Assembly: GCF_001999965.1 (NCBI RefSeq)
Contig: NZ_CP019646.1
Location: forward strand, 1,240,001 to 1,304,000
DNA: 64,000 bases
Origin: Limihaloglobus sulfuriphilus
Lineage (GTDB): Bacteria; Planctomycetota; Phycisphaerae; Sedimentisphaerales; Sedimentisphaeraceae
Reading direction: 5' to 3'
The notes beneath the pieces were generated by a model. It did no database searches. It saw only the letters and a list, made by a program, of their open reading frames with translations, and was not told the origin of the DNA. Positions 20,404 to 27,149 of this stretch are shown one piece after another. Position numbers and translations under genes: made by a program. The stretch's first letter is position 1, and each line of letters begins with the position of its first letter.

Positions 20404-20536
20404 AACACCGATATGGAACGAATTAAACAGCCCAGCCCGTCTTCGTTTTTGTCCCGTCAAACCTATGCCATAATAAAAGATAGGACGAGCACCGCCGGCA
20501 GCGATGCCCGTTTTGAGACATATCTTTTATAAATCC

Positions 20537-21289
20537 TTAGTTATTCAGCTTTTCAAGGATTTCATCCGGAATATCGAAGTTTGAATACACATTTTGAACA
20601 TCATCATGGTCTTCAAAGTCCTCGACGAGATTAAGTATCTTCTCCGCCGCGGATACATCTGAAACCTTGATGGTGTTCTGGGGAACCATTGCCAACTCTG
20701 CGGACAAGGGCTCTATACCTGATTCAGTAATGGCATTTTTCAGCCCGTCAAACTCTGAAGGTGCGCAGGTGATTTCATACACTTCACCCAGATTCTGCAT
20801 ATCCTCGGCTCCTGCTCCAAGAGCAGTATCCATAAGCTCATCTTCGTCCACAGACTCTGCGGAAACGGTGATAACACCCTTGCTGCTGAACATATAACTA
20901 ACGCAGCCGCTGGTGCCCATAGAGCCGCCGCGGCGTTCGAACAATTTCTTGACTTCCGGACCGGTGCGGTTTCTATTATCGGTCAGAGTTTCAACCATAA
21001 CAGCTATTCCGCCGGGGGCGTAACCCTCGTAGATAATCTCTTCATAGCTGACGCCGCCAAGTTCGCCGGTGCCCTTTTTTATCGCTTTTTCGATAGTATC
21101 TTTGGGCATATTCGCGGCTTTGCCCTTGTCGATAGCATAACGAAGCGGGAGATTTGAAGACGGATCGCCGCCGCCGTTTTTAGCAGCAACCATGATCAGC
21201 TTTGCTATCTTGCTCCAGGCTCTTCCTCGTTTTGCATCATTTGCGGCTTTTTTGTGTTTTATACCAGCCCAATGTGAATGACCTGCCAT
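20537..21289 (-). CDS. yebC: YebC/PmpR family transcription/translation regulator
   Basis: A 250-aa YebC protein (TACO1 family), recognised from MAGHSHWAGIKHKKAANDAKRG, the hallmark N-terminus, then IYEGYAPGGIAVMVETLTDNRNRT and FERRGGSMGTSGCVSYMF. The family has been described both as DNA-binding regulators and as ribosome-associated factors that ease polyproline stalling; the second role would suit its place at the end of the nusA-infB-rbfA operon. GAGGA lies 6 bases before the ATG. It is full length and has all three usual domains. Confidence 0.96.
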   Translation of the reverse strand: MAGHSHWAGIKHKKAANDAKRGRAWSKIAKLIMVAAKNGGGDPSSNLPLRYAIDKGKAANMPKDTIEKAIKKGTGELGGVSYEEIIYEGYAPGGIAVMVETLTDNRNRTGPEVKKLFERRGGSMGTSGCVSYMFSSKGVITVSAESVDEDELMDTALGAGAEDMQNLGEVYEITCAPSEFDGLKNAITESGIEPLSAELAMVPQNTIKVSDVSAAEKILNLVEDFEDHDDVQNVYSNFDIPDEILEKLNN

Positions 21290-21325: not shown

Positions 21326-22210
21326 TTATTTCTTCTTAGCAGCTGTTTTCTTCTTTGCTGACTTGGCCTTAGGTGCCGTTTTTTTAGCGGTTGTCTTCTT
21401 TGTTGCGGTTTTTTTGGCTGCTGATTTTTTTGTAGCTGTTTTCTTTGCCGTTTTCTTCTTTGCTGTCTTAGTTTCAGCGGCGGATTTTACTGTCTTCTTC
21501 GCGGCTGAACCGGCCTTTGCTGAGGATTTTTTCGATTTAGACGGAGTTTTCTTTTTTGCAGTTTTAGCTTTATTAGATTCTTCGGCATGAGCCTCAATAT
21601 CCTCAATGTCCGCTTGATCAGCGGCGGCTTTTATATAGCAGTACAGGCTGTAAAGCTCGCTAACTGGTATTTGTCTCTCGAGAAAGCCCTTTATCTCAGA
21701 TTCTTTGGAACCCGGATAAACCAGGCCCGCGAATTTGACGTAATCAAACATCCTTTTAGACATAGGAAGGTGCTGAGCCCCCATAGCCGTCAACATAAAG
21801 AAGTCAATTATATACTTGCTCATACCCGTTAGAGTATCAAGCTCCCTGCTGGCTTCACGTTTGCCTTTTTCGAGCAGCATTTCCAGCGAGAGACAATCAT
21901 ATTTGTCAAAAATTGCGTTTAGAGCGGATTTTATATTTTCTCCAAGCAATTTAGATTCAAGGCATCTGCTGCCGAGTACATCTTTGATTTCTTCGTGGCG
22001 TGAAACCCGCAAATCGTTCCAGTCAACGAAGTGTGATTGAAGGGTTGAGTATATTGTGGGTGCGTCTTGAAACGGAACGATTTCATATATTCCCGCCCAG
22101 ACGACAATATCTATCTCATTTTCCTGCTCTATCTGAGGAACAGATATTTCAGATTTCATTTTTTTAATGAATTTTTTTAGTACCTGAGAATATTTTTTGG
22201 ACTCTTTCAT
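21326..22210 (-). CDS. HhH-GPD-like protein with histone-H1-like tail
   Basis: A 294-aa protein in two parts. Residues about 20-200 resemble the helix-hairpin-helix fold of endonuclease III: FVDWNDLRVSRHEEI (61-75), hairpin LDTLTGMSKYI (124-134) and helix KRMFDYVKFAGLV (152-164). The place of the catalytic Asp (VDTHV in active enzymes) reads LPMSKRM (148-154), and no Cys cluster follows, so glycosylase activity is unlikely. Residues about 213-294 are almost only Lys, Ala, Thr and Ser with AAKKTA-type repeats, like eukaryotic and bacterial histone-H1-like tails. AGAGG precedes the ATG; it starts 13 bases after rbfA and ends 36 bases before yebC. A structural DNA-binding or nucleoid role is inferred. 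Confidence 0.8.
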   Translation of the reverse strand: MKESKKYSQVLKKFIKKMKSEISVPQIEQENEIDIVVWAGIYEIVPFQDAPTIYSTLQSHFVDWNDLRVSRHEEIKDVLGSRCLESKLLGENIKSALNAIFDKYDCLSLEMLLEKGKREASRELDTLTGMSKYIIDFFMLTAMGAQHLPMSKRMFDYVKFAGLVYPGSKESEIKGFLERQIPVSELYSLYCYIKAAADQADIEDIEAHAEESNKAKTAKKKTPSKSKKSSAKAGSAAKKTVKSAAETKTAKKKTAKKTATKKSAAKKTATKKTTAKKTAPKAKSAKKKTAAKKK

Positions 22211-22223
22211 TTCAACCTCTGAT

Positions 22224-22628
22224 CTATTTTATGTCTTCTGTATCCTGGTCTTGGATATTCTGCTCGGCGTCTTTTTTATGCAGCTCATCAGCTATCTTTT
22301 CAATTATTTTAAGAGTTTCGCCGGCCTTTTTATATTTTAGATCTTCATGAAAACTTATTATCGGACAAAAACGGATATTAAGCTCATGGGCAAGCAAAGT
22401 CTGAATGTGGCCGCGGGCATGTTTTATCGCACGCAGAGTAATTTCCGCGGTATCCTCGGGTATAAAACTCAGATGAACCGACGCGTTACGCAGGTCAGGA
22501 GTCAATTCAACCTCGGTTACACTGACAAAGCCCTGGATTCGCGGGTCACTGAGATGATTTTGAATCGCATCGCTGACCACTTCTTTTATGATTCTTGCCA
22601 TACGAAGTTTTCGCCGGTTTTCAAGCAT
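22224..22628 (-). CDS. rbfA: 30S ribosome-binding factor RbfA
   Basis: A 134-aa late 30S assembly factor that binds 16S rRNA near helix 1 and is needed for cold growth. The family pattern is visible: ARIIKEVVSDAIQNHLSDPRI, FVSVTEVELTPDLRNASVHLSF and the KH-like half with HELNIRFCPIISFHED. The C-terminus is charged and probably flexible. It lies 47 bases after infB, the usual order. The ATG at 22628 lacks a ribosome site; a second ATG at 22601 (MARIIKE) is possible. Confidence 0.93.
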   Translation of the reverse strand: MLENRRKLRMARIIKEVVSDAIQNHLSDPRIQGFVSVTEVELTPDLRNASVHLSFIPEDTAEITLRAIKHARGHIQTLLAHELNIRFCPIISFHEDLKYKKAGETLKIIEKIADELHKKDAEQNIQDQDTEDIK

Positions 22629-22675: not shown

Positions 22676-25399
22676 TTAAAGAGTCCTGGCAACTTTAATG
22701 ATTTCGTACGCTTCAAACTGATCGTCAACTTTGATATCGTCAAAGCCGGAGATATTTATGCCGCACTCATAGCCGGACTTTACCTCGCGGACATCATCTT
22801 TAAAGTGTTTGAGTGAATCGATTTTACAGTTGTCCTTAACTACGACATTGTTTCGTATCAGACGAATCTGAGAATTTCGCCTTACAAGCCCCTCATTCAC
22901 ATAACATCCGGCAATGGTACCGGCATTTGGAACACGGAAGGTATCTCTAACGGTAAGCCTGCCGAGAATGTTTTCTTTTTCATCCGGCTCAAGCATACCG
23001 GCCATAGCGTCTTTGAGCTCTTCTGTTATTCTGTAAATAACATTGTAAAGCCTTATATCCACTCCGCGTTCTTCGGCGATATTCTTCACCTGGTTCTCTG
23101 GAACCACATTGAAGCCGATAATGATTGCTCCGGAGGCCTCCGCAAGCACGACATCGCCCTCGGTTACGCCTCCAACGCCGGCATGAATGATTTTTATCTT
23201 TACTTCATCTGTGTTGAGCTCACTTAGATATTTGATCAAAACATCAACAGAGCCCTGCACATCTGCACGGATGATAAGGTTAAGCTCTTTGACATTACCT
23301 GCCTCGATCTGGCTGAAGAGATTATCCAGCGTAATGTTAGTCCTGCGGCTTAGGGTTTTCTCACGCTCTAACTGTTTGAGCTGTTCGGCAGCGTCTTTTG
23401 CCCGTGACTGGTCATTGAGGCAATAGAATTTATCGCCGGCACTGGGCACATCACTGAGACCTGTAACCTCTACCGGAATCGATGGTCCGGCTTTTTTGAT
23501 CACTTTTCCACTGCTGTCCCGCATTGTCCGCAGACGGCCGTAGCCAATACCTGCCAGAATAACATCGCCCTTCTTGAGAGTACCTTCTTTTATGAGCAGT
23601 GTTGCCACCACACCCCTGTCCTGGGTCATTTTCGATTCGACAACCCAGCCCATTGCCGGGATCTTTGTGTCGGCCTTCAACTCATGAAGCTCAGCAATCA
23701 GCTCTATTGCCTCGATGAGCTCATCGATTCCTTCACCTGTTTCCGCACTGGTTTTGACAACCTCGGTATCGCCGCCCCATTCACTCGGCACAAGACCGTT
23801 TTCCGCGAGCTGGCCGTATATCTTATTAACATCAACACCGGGTAAATCAATTTTGTTAAGTGCCACAATTATAGGCACTTCTGCCGCCTGGGCGTGATTT
23901 ATCGCTTCTTTTGTCTGAGGCATCACACCGTCGTCTGCCGCACATACAAGTATTACGATATCTGTCATGTTAGCACCGCGGGCACGCATGGCCGTGAAAG
24001 CTGCGTGGCCGGGCGTATCGAGGAATGTTAACTTATGTCCTTTGTAATTTACCTGATGCGCGCCGGTATGCTGAGTAATACCGCCGGCCTCTCCCGCGGC
24101 AACACTTGCTGAACGTATCTTGTCAAGCAGTGAGGTCTTGCCGTGGTCAACATGACCGAGCATGGTTACCACCGGATGGCGGCTTTGAATATTTTTACGC
24201 TCACGCTCTTTGAACTCGGTTTCAATGTCTTCTTCGACTGTCTTTTTCACTTCTACGACAAGCTCAACACCAAATTCCAGAGCCACAAGCTCTGCAACAT
24301 CAGTAGATATAGCCTGGTTAGCCGTCGCCATTATTCCCTGCTTCATGAGCTCTTTGATTATATCCGTGATCTTGACTGAAAGAGACGCCGAAAGTGATTT
24401 TACGGTTATAGGCTCTGAAACAGCAACCTTGTCGGGACGTTCAACCTTTCTGGCAGACTCTGATTTCTTCTTCTCGCCGCCGCCAATCTTTCTTGAAGGC
24501 CGCAAACGGAGTGTCTCGCCCCGAGCCGCGGCAAGGCGGGCACGCCTTTCTTCAATATCACGCATCCGATATTTTTTAGAGTGTTTATCATCATCACTGC
24601 GGCCGGAAGATGACTTTTTGCCTTTTTTACCCTTTTTATCCTTCAACGCATCCATCAGTTTTTCCGTGGGCGGTGCCGCGAAATCAGGAACACTTCTCGG
24701 CTGACGCGGTTTACGGGGGCGGCTGCGGGTGTCTTCTACCGGCTTTTCAACCCTGACAACCTTTGGCCCGCTCAGTTTTGCCGGTTTAGGCACAGAAAGC
24801 TGGGGACCTGCCGGTTTGACATTGACCGGTTTGGGAACTTCTACCATAACCGGTGCAGCCGGCTTGTCTATCTTCTGCGGTATATTGACCCTGAAGGCCT
24901 CTGCCTGCTCAGGTTCTTTGGGCTTTTCTTCTGCTGTGTCGTCATCTGTTTTTTCAGGTTCTTCTCCGGCCTCAGGTTCTGCTTTTTCAGTTTCTTCTTT
25001 AACCTGCGTCTCTTGACCGGCTTCTTTTGCCTCAGTTTCCCTGGGCTCGGCGGCGGCAGAGGGTTGGGCTTCTTTAGGCTCTAATCCGGCCTGCTCTGAT
25101 CCCTGCACACCGGCGGGAGCTGCCTCTTGGGCTGTGCCGGCCTGGCCAGAGGGCTCAGTCTCTGATTTCTGGGGAACAACGCGTACCTCTTTGAGATCTA
25201 CCCGGTCTGTCGTTTCTACTACATGAGTGTGCTCACCCTCGCTGAACCATTCGCGTATTGATGCCGCCTGACCAGCGGTCAATGTTGACATATGGTTCTT
25301 CACGTCCAGGCCCTCTGCCTGGCATTTTTCGACGATAGATTTACTCTTTACGCCTAATTGTTTTGCAAGAATGTGAACTCTGTATTGCGTTTTAGCCAA
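22676..25399 (-). CDS. infB: Translation initiation factor IF-2
   Basis: A 907-aa GTPase that places initiator tRNA on the 30S subunit. The N-terminal IF2 helix domain ([31 protein letters not shown], residues 6-37) is followed by a long Glu/Ala/Pro-rich linker (about 70-240) and a Lys/Arg-rich stretch (about 240-320). A second IF2_N domain then leads to the G domain: GHVDHGKT (G1), DTPGH (G3) and NKID (G4). Domains II-IV complete the factor. The start is TTG at 25399, 7 bases after GGAG; no in-frame ATG fits the family start. It lies 56 bases after nusA. Confidence 0.97.
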
Positions 25400-25455: not shown

Positions 25456-26631
25456 TTACTCAGCGGATTCAGACCCTGACTTTTCAGCCTTTAATGTCTC
25501 TATTGCCAGATCGACCAGACGCTGCGCGAGGTCTTGATCAAGACCAAGCTCATCGATAAGCGGCTGCGGGCCGACTTCTTCTATGTCATGCACCGTAAGC
25601 AGGCCTAAAGCAAGGAACTTATCGATCAAATGTTCATCACCTGTTGAAAACTCTTTATATATTTCAGTCAGTTCCTCAACTTCCTGATTATACTCATCGG
25701 GAGTCAAAATATCGATATCCCATCCTGTCAGACGTGCCGCGAGACGCACATTTTGTCCATGCTTGCCGATTGCCAGGCTTAGCTGGCTCTCGGGCACAAC
25801 AGCGGTCGCCCTGCCCAGCTCGAAACAAAGTGCAATTTCCGTGCATTCTGCCGGCTTGATGGCATTGGTTATCAGATCCTGTGATGAATCACTCCAGGGA
25901 ACGATATCTATTTTCTCGCCGCTGAGCTCATCAACTATATTTTTGATCCTGCTGCCTCTTACGCCGACACACGCCCCGACAGGATCTACACGGTCATCGT
26001 TAGAGCCGACTGCAATCTTCGTACGGTAGCCGGCCTCTCTTGAAAGCGCCCGTATTTCTACAATGCCCTCGGCAATTTCGGGTATTTCAGCTTCAAAGAG
26101 CCGCCGTATAAAATCTCTGTGAGTTCTGGAGAGCTTTATTTTAACCTGGCTTGTATCTTCACGTACATCAGCTATAACTGCCCGGAGCCTCTCACCTGTG
26201 TGGTGGGTCTCGCCGGGGATCTGCTCTGTCTTAGGCAGATATGCCTCGGCCCTGCCCTCAAGACTTATGACGGCACTGCCTCTTTCTTTGCGGGTTATGG
26301 TGCCGGTTATCAACTCGCCCCTGCGCTCGGCATATTCTGTATAAATGCTGTCCCGTTCATCGGCTTTTATTTTCTGGATCATAACCTGCTTGACTGTCTG
26401 AGCAGGGATACGGCCGAGCTCTTTGATATCAATCGGGGCATTGTCCTTGTAAGCCGTTATCTGGCCGTTATTTCTGTCGATATTAACAACGACATCACAA
26501 TCAGGGTCACCATAGTGCTTCTTGGCACCGGAGACCATCGCTGCTTCAAGGTCTAAAAAAATTGACTCGCGGTCAAGATTTTTATCTCTTGCAATGTTAT
26601 CAACTATTCTGACAATTTCCTGAGTATTCAT
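25456..26631 (-). CDS. nusA: Transcription termination/antitermination protein NusA
   Basis: A 391-aa RNA-polymerase-binding factor that tunes pausing and termination. The N-terminal domain (about 1-120) is followed by an S1 domain (GELITGTITRKERGSAVISLEGRAEAYLP) and two KH domains with DPVGACVGVRGSRIKNIVDELSGEKIDIV and LAIGKHGQNVRLAARLTGWDIDI. A single C-terminal HhH-like acidic repeat follows (IDKFLALGLLTVHDIEEVGPQPL). The ATG at 26631 is chosen over the TTG 3 bases upstream. The usual rimP gene is not upstream; instead there is a hairpin with a T-run 22 bases before the start. Confidence 0.96.
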   Translation of the reverse strand: MNTQEIVRIVDNIARDKNLDRESIFLDLEAAMVSGAKKHYGDPDCDVVVNIDRNNGQITAYKDNAPIDIKELGRIPAQTVKQVMIQKIKADERDSIYTEYAERRGELITGTITRKERGSAVISLEGRAEAYLPKTEQIPGETHHTGERLRAVIADVREDTSQVKIKLSRTHRDFIRRLFEAEIPEIAEGIVEIRALSREAGYRTKIAVGSNDDRVDPVGACVGVRGSRIKNIVDELSGEKIDIVPWSDSSQDLITNAIKPAECTEIALCFELGRATAVVPESQLSLAIGKHGQNVRLAARLTGWDIDILTPDEYNQEVEELTEIYKEFSTGDEHLIDKFLALGLLTVHDIEEVGPQPLIDELGLDQDLAQRLVDLAIETLKAEKSGSESAE

Positions 26632-26653
26632 CAATTTGCTTTCTTAAAACAAT

Positions 26654-26683
26654 AAAAAAAGTGGAAACCCGGAGATTTCCACT
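26654..26683 (-). terminator. Intrinsic-terminator-like hairpin just upstream of nusA
   Basis: On the minus strand AGTGGAAA (26683-26676) pairs perfectly with TTTCCACT (26667-26660) around an 8-base loop, and seven T residues follow. It ends 22 bases before the nusA ATG. Either it ends an unseen upstream transcript or it is an attenuator of the nusA operon, where NusA could regulate its own synthesis. The 8-bp stem and T-run are seen; the role is inferred. Confidence 0.7.
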
Positions 26684-27149
26684 TCATATTACGTATAAAC
26701 TGTTATCATAACAGACTGCGCCGGGCGGATTTAACCCCGCCACCCATCAAAAGGGCGTAATATTAATTTGAAGCAGAGAATCTGCATCCGAATCTACATT
26801 AAATTTCTCATAACGTTAATTCCAATTAAAAACTCCATAAGATTATAAGCAACTATACTGATATGTCAACAAGGGCTTTACTAAAAAATAAGACGCGGCG
26901 ATTTTTCTTTCAAGTCAAAAAATACGTCCGGGCTAAACCACCCAAAGCCCCGTGTCCAACTCTACACCGCATTCACAGATTTAGTGTCTTAAACATCTTT
27001 CCCGGCAGGACAATCGCACCTTAATATACCTGAATCGCCCGCGGTTTTCATCTTTGTCTTTGCTATACAGGATTATTTTGATATAAATTCAGTCTGCATT
27101 TAGCAGTTTTATAACAGATACAATTTAAAAAAACAGAAAAAAAACACAA
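26684..27149. other. Gene-free region upstream of nusA and ispH
   Basis: About 465 bases between divergent nusA and ispH. It holds a second possible hairpin in the nusA leader (GGCGG...CCGCC, about 26723-26743) and the palindrome CTGTTATCATAACAG at 26700-26714, which could be an operator. No coding frame with a ribosome site was seen; rimP, expected here in many bacteria, is absent. Confidence 0.5.

Follow-up and report, generated by a model that had tools for sequence, protein, structure and literature searches.

The protein encoded at 21326..22210 (minus strand) of the window, the 64,000-nucleotide stretch of the Limihaloglobus sulfuriphilus genome analysed here, has the fold of endonuclease III (EndoIII) and descends from it. 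Alignments show that the catalytic residues of EndoIII have been lost in this protein, and a Lys-rich C-terminal tail follows its folded core. We use CORE as a working name for the protein, and our literature search found no published description of it. Our favoured explanation is that CORE is an EndoIII-derived pseudoenzyme recruited to the assembly of the 30S ribosomal subunit or to translation, a proposal that in our judgement could equally prove right or wrong.

CORE is a 294-residue open reading frame running from ATG to stop, with exactly the coordinates given in the initial annotation. It forms part of the minus-strand run nusA-infB-rbfA-CORE-yebC, in which the genes are separated by 56, 47, 13 and 36 bases. 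Its flanks are those originally described: rbfA, encoding ribosome-binding factor A (22224..22628, minus strand; PF02033, E = 3e-24), and yebC, of the YebC/TACO1 family (20537..21289, minus strand; PF01709, E = 1e-58). CORE thus lies downstream of infB (encoding IF-2; 22676..25399, minus strand) and nusA (25456..26634, minus strand), both identified by open reading frame, by the initial annotation and as conserved neighbours. Upstream of nusA is a sigma-70-like promoter, TTGACA-16-TATAAT (26842..26869, minus strand), called from a 12/12 consensus match only. A terminator-like hairpin of 12 pairs directly past yebC (20485..20511, minus strand), likewise a consensus match only, is the likely end of the operon. 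A second 12-pair hairpin with a T-run lies between the promoter-like site and the nusA start (26658-26685, minus strand); it is a possible attenuator of the nusA operon, and an Rfam search of its region gave no match.

The folded core (residues 1-200; 21611..22210, minus strand) falls into no Pfam or NCBIfam family, in line with the original impression that no named family covers it. There is no match to PF00730, the HhH-GPD profile, and Pfam searches with single members of the CORE family, even those holding Fe-S cysteines, also returned nothing. The AlphaFold model of the core, built from 30 sequences, has a pLDDT of 93 and a pTM of 0.89, and shows the helical fold of EndoIII. Its top Foldseek match in the PDB is 4uob, EndoIII-3 of D. 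radiodurans (E = 8.6e-6, TM 0.74), and the best matches are EndoIII-1 (DR2438) and EndoIII-3 of D. radiodurans (PDB 4unf, 4uob), ROS1 and Bst EndoIII. A model of one Fe-S-retaining member aligns with 4uob at TM 0.83. The HhH-GPD fold proposed at the outset is therefore borne out, and no unrelated fold emerged.

Sequence profiles agree with the fold. A profile of cores from the window's order, Sedimentisphaerales, gives a weak EndoIII match (E = 0.011), and a profile of Fe-S-retaining members reaches D. radiodurans EndoIII-1 at 2.2e-29, EndoIII-3 at 7e-26 and ROS1 at 2e-18. With an E of 2e-29 between these cysteine-holding relatives and EndoIII-1, descent from EndoIII is shown by sequence. Single members also match the DR2438 glycosylase family of NCBIfam, NF053634, with E values as low as 1.7e-15. 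The scores required by curated profiles (PF00730, TIGR01083 and NF053634) are not reached, the best being 57 bits to NF053634 in a relative, against a cut-off of 400. In a quick tree with planctomycete EndoIII, MagIII-like and MutY proteins, in which support was computed without bootstrap and many forks stay open, the CORE family forms one clade. The Fe-S-holding members in this tree are either deep lineages or a Gemmatales-type branch beside Fe-S-less Planctomycetia. Most simply, the Fe-S cluster was ancestral in the CORE family and was lost more than once.

The active site of EndoIII depends on a Lys/Asp pair, and neither residue is found in the window protein. Alignments to PDB chains place Tyr133 (21812..21814, minus strand) at the catalytic Lys of the bifunctional enzymes, and Ser151 (21758..21760, minus strand) falls at the catalytic Asp of the VDTH motif. 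The Lys column holds Phe or Tyr in 142/174 family members. The Asp column is T, N, S or H in the 33 members of the window's order and Asp in 98 of the 174 members overall, including most Planctomycetia, so that the reported loss of the catalytic pair holds for the window protein, whereas many relatives keep the Asp. The loss of the Fe-S cysteines is likewise confirmed: the window protein has three scattered Cys and no C-X6-C-X2-C-X5-C loop of the EndoIII and MutY kind, a loop retained in Gemmatales-type and deep-lineage members. The GxG of the HhH hairpin is degenerate; the window protein has G-M-S, and most members have Ser or Thr at the third position. Besides CORE, a MagIII-like enzyme and a canonical EndoIII are encoded.

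A Ser at the Asp position is also found in Sis-HhH-GPD of Saccharolobus, a member of the same superfamily that is active and requires Glu134 (PMC11754123). The MagIII-type proteins here carry GVGPETA, whose Glu falls in the Lys column, and we infer from this that Glu134 maps to that column. The window protein has neither Glu nor Lys there, unlike Sis-HhH-GPD, but Tyr, which makes loss of glycosylase activity likely. Judged by sequence, the activity is most likely gone, at least in the window's order; the window protein may not be representative of members in which the Asp persists.

What the family conserves most strictly lies elsewhere. The motif D-x-N-[E/D]-x-R-V, largely missing from EndoIII, is its best-conserved stretch, and the old active site is less conserved. 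In the window protein it reads D63-x-N65-D66-x-R68-V69...E74 (21989..22024, minus strand). Among 96 members picked without use of the motif, R68 is present in 96, N65 in 95, D63 in 89 and V69 in 88, and position 66 is Glu or Asp in 95. The aligned stretch of EndoIII-1 is DWDAITLA, so the Asp and Trp are old, and the Asn, the Glu/Asp and the Arg were gained. The motif would be a new candidate binding site.

The tail (residues 211-294; 21329..21580, minus strand) is as rich in Lys and Ala as had been noted, with 34 Lys, 20 Ala and 14 Thr in 84 residues, no Arg and a net charge of about +32. It shares with the histone H1-like HC2 proteins a low-complexity segment rich in Lys and Ala. However, it scores only 14.7 bits against the HC2 profile PF07382, below the gathering cut-off of 40, and it is attached behind a folded, enzyme-derived domain. 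Basic tails are frequent and variable in the family. The length past the core ranges from 13 to 204 residues within the window's order, and there is a short tail or none in some Phycisphaerae and in Gemmatales. By a rough criterion, a basic tail is present in 122 Fe-S-less members and missing in 29, and the corresponding counts for Fe-S-holding members are 10 and 13. Several deep members carry both the Fe-S loop and a Lys tail, so a strict trade of one for the other is rejected. The fusion highlighted by the initial annotation is thus not one odd event: a survey of Planctomycetota finds the core and its operon position widespread, but the tail variable and sometimes missing. CORE is a phylum-wide core family whose tails come and go. 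The tails of several Pirellulales-type (L084, L086, L087, L088) and Gemmatales members have a K-P-[R/K]-like motif in common at their very ends, a hint that the C-terminus makes a specific contact.

Similar tails occur on other proteins of the same genome. Rho, an RNA-binding protein and transcription terminator, is encoded at a contig position of about 398 kb and has a Lys/Thr-rich N-terminal insert in the same style as the CORE tail. At about 2063043-2064318 lies a gene for a 278-residue protein of almost pure Lys/Ala/Thr repeats (HC2, PF07382, 3e-32), and beside it one for a 100-residue protein with a Lys-rich N-tail and a weak match to DUF1931, which is histone-fold-like. The HC2-like protein, its DUF1931-like neighbour and Rho all bear such repeats. 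The tail alone cannot separate DNA from RNA as a target, and its value as a sign of nucleoid function is weakened by the repeats on Rho. The charge of the core is not decisive either. The CORE core is neutral to acidic, against about +12 for the true EndoIII of the window's order; this was considered as proof of lost DNA binding and set aside, since an acidic charge is likewise seen in the MagIII-like glycosylases of these genomes.

Set against EndoIII, then, the window protein lacks the catalytic Lys/Asp pair and the Fe-S loop, and has a degenerate HhH, a D-x-N-E-x-R-V-type motif, a Lys tail and a ribosomal context.

CORE is present in 56 of 59 genomes of the window's order and in all 41 that are near-complete (41/41), which is not chance. 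Across the phylum, profile A1 is matched by 232 of 292 sampled Planctomycetota, and with the broader profile A5 about 240 of the 292 have a best E below 1e-15 in the result table, our count of strong matches. Most of the remaining genomes have only weak A5 matches, of the kind that true glycosylases may give. Most Planctomycetota have one CORE copy. A scan of genome contigs found 477 relatives, and the best 80 of these 477 are all planctomycete, two of them from Kuenenia.

The position of the gene varies remarkably little. In each Phycisphaerae and Planctomycetia locus examined for which the DNA sufficed, CORE comes immediately behind rbfA. rbfA is directly upstream of CORE in 60/60 loci (L003-L032, L062-L091), and also in all 75 Planctomycetia loci with enough DNA, a set picked by sequence motif and not by position. 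In deeper lineages, 28 of 30 representatives have CORE near yebC, rbfA or rpsP (S16): yebC is within about 2.6 kb in 15, rbfA is adjacent in one, and rpsP is upstream in 13, usually in an ffh-rpsP-CORE run, one representative having both yebC and rpsP nearby. Measured from coordinates, rpsP and CORE are no more than 1.6 kb apart in 24 of the 60 genomes compared. At L253, a deep-lineage locus where no ribosomal neighbour was recognised, a gene for a Volactin-family protein (PF25216) lies upstream (L253:4769-5980). YebC is a ribosome factor (PMC12234827, PMC11990639), and the recurrence of rbfA, rpsP and yebC across the phylum points to a ribosome role for CORE. Any single neighbour is to be read with caution, because hisG is downstream of CORE in several relatives (L065, L070, L095). 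It sits between CORE and yebC where the stretch includes yebC, a position it does not have in the window, and maf follows CORE in other relatives.

The gene rimM normally lies after rpsP, and in many deep lineages CORE occupies this slot. In the genome of the window the rimM place is empty: rpsP (1492875-1493057) is followed directly by trmD and rplS. RimM was found in none of 292 Planctomycetota by PF01782 and in none of 195 above the cut-off of TIGR02273, and controls with the two profiles recovered it in 10/10 bacteria. RimM is a 30S maturation factor, described as conserved in bacteria, and consists of two beta-barrels (PMC9032327); CORE, by contrast, is all-helical and has no sequence or fold relation to it. 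We rejected strict replacement of RimM by CORE. CORE-less lineages, for example family f49, are also without RimM, and CORE therefore cannot be an obligate substitute; only a partial version of this idea remains. Displacement of TruB was rejected as well. In E. coli truB follows rbfA, and neither the genome of the window nor any other genome sampled from its order has a match to TruB_N (PF01509), which is common elsewhere in the phylum. Nevertheless, most Phycisphaerae and Planctomycetia have truB as well as CORE, and truB is beside rbfA in 0 of 30 loci examined.

How might CORE act at the ribosome? We infer RNA binding, with the folded helical core serving as a scaffold that keeps the EndoIII shape. 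The D-x-N-[E/D]-x-R-V motif would most likely dock on a ribosomal partner or on rRNA, and the Lys-rich tail would supply non-specific RNA-binding charge and hold the rRNA. CORE would probably act in small-subunit assembly or early translation alongside RbfA and YebC. A fuller history, in which a DNA-repair enzyme became a 30S assembly factor early in Planctomycetota and assumed some of the work of RimM, with the Fe-S cluster later dropped in several lineages and a Lys-rich RNA-binding tail becoming common, we consider unlikely as a whole.

Several points count against a ribosome role. The HhH-GPD superfamily binds DNA, the Fe-S loop of glycosylases aids that binding, and Gemmatales and deep members keep the loop, as many members keep the Asp. 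Moreover, hisG and maf share the runs with CORE; gene neighbourhood is suggestive at most. These same companions fit a gene that merely gains steady expression from its place in a strong housekeeping operon and has a function unrelated to its neighbours, and operon membership alone is no proof of function. One inherited location does not, however, explain two ribosomal contexts, rbfA-yebC and ffh-rpsP, and we find this explanation improbable. The initial annotation had proposed a likely DNA-binding or nucleoid protein tied to transcription-translation genes. On this reading the dead glycosylase core would recognise DNA shape and the H1-like tail would condense DNA, so that the nucleoid is coupled to the operon. 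The HhH-GPD ancestry and the tail of CORE speak for this, as do the stand-alone HC2-like protein and the K-tailed, weakly DUF1931-like protein of the same genome, and D. radiodurans EndoIII-3, which has no detectable activity though its Lys/Asp pair is intact, binds damaged DNA tightly (PMC9268735). Against it stand the degenerate GxG, a core that is not basic, a tail that several members lack or have only in short form, Lys repeats of the same kind on Rho, and ribosomal neighbours, with no DNA-repair or chromosome gene beside CORE in the loci checked. The nucleoid link has lost support and now seems somewhat unlikely.

It is decidedly improbable that CORE is an unusual working DNA glycosylase or lesion sensor, in which Asp-holding (and Fe-S-holding) members would be monofunctional and the window protein would use another residue. 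The Asp of most Planctomycetia members, the closest NCBIfam family, which is a monofunctional glycosylase, and the activity of Sis-HhH-GPD with Ser replacing Asp are in its favour. Yet the Glu134 that Sis-HhH-GPD needs would fall where Phe or Tyr predominates in CORE, the window protein has no Fe-S loop, there is already a canonical EndoIII as well as a MagIII-like enzyme, and the conserved part of the family is not the old active site.

We return to the pseudoenzyme recruited to the ribosome as our preferred explanation. Transposon libraries exist for Planctopirus limnophila (PMC10632474), which makes the question testable there. CORE is widespread throughout an entire phylum and lies outside every Pfam family and every trusted NCBIfam cut-off. 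Its family preserves a readable path from an active Fe-S glycosylase towards a pseudoenzyme, and living members still represent the intermediates. Should the ribosome role prove true, this path would be a new way of arriving at a ribosome factor, and would bear on how a phylum can lack RimM.
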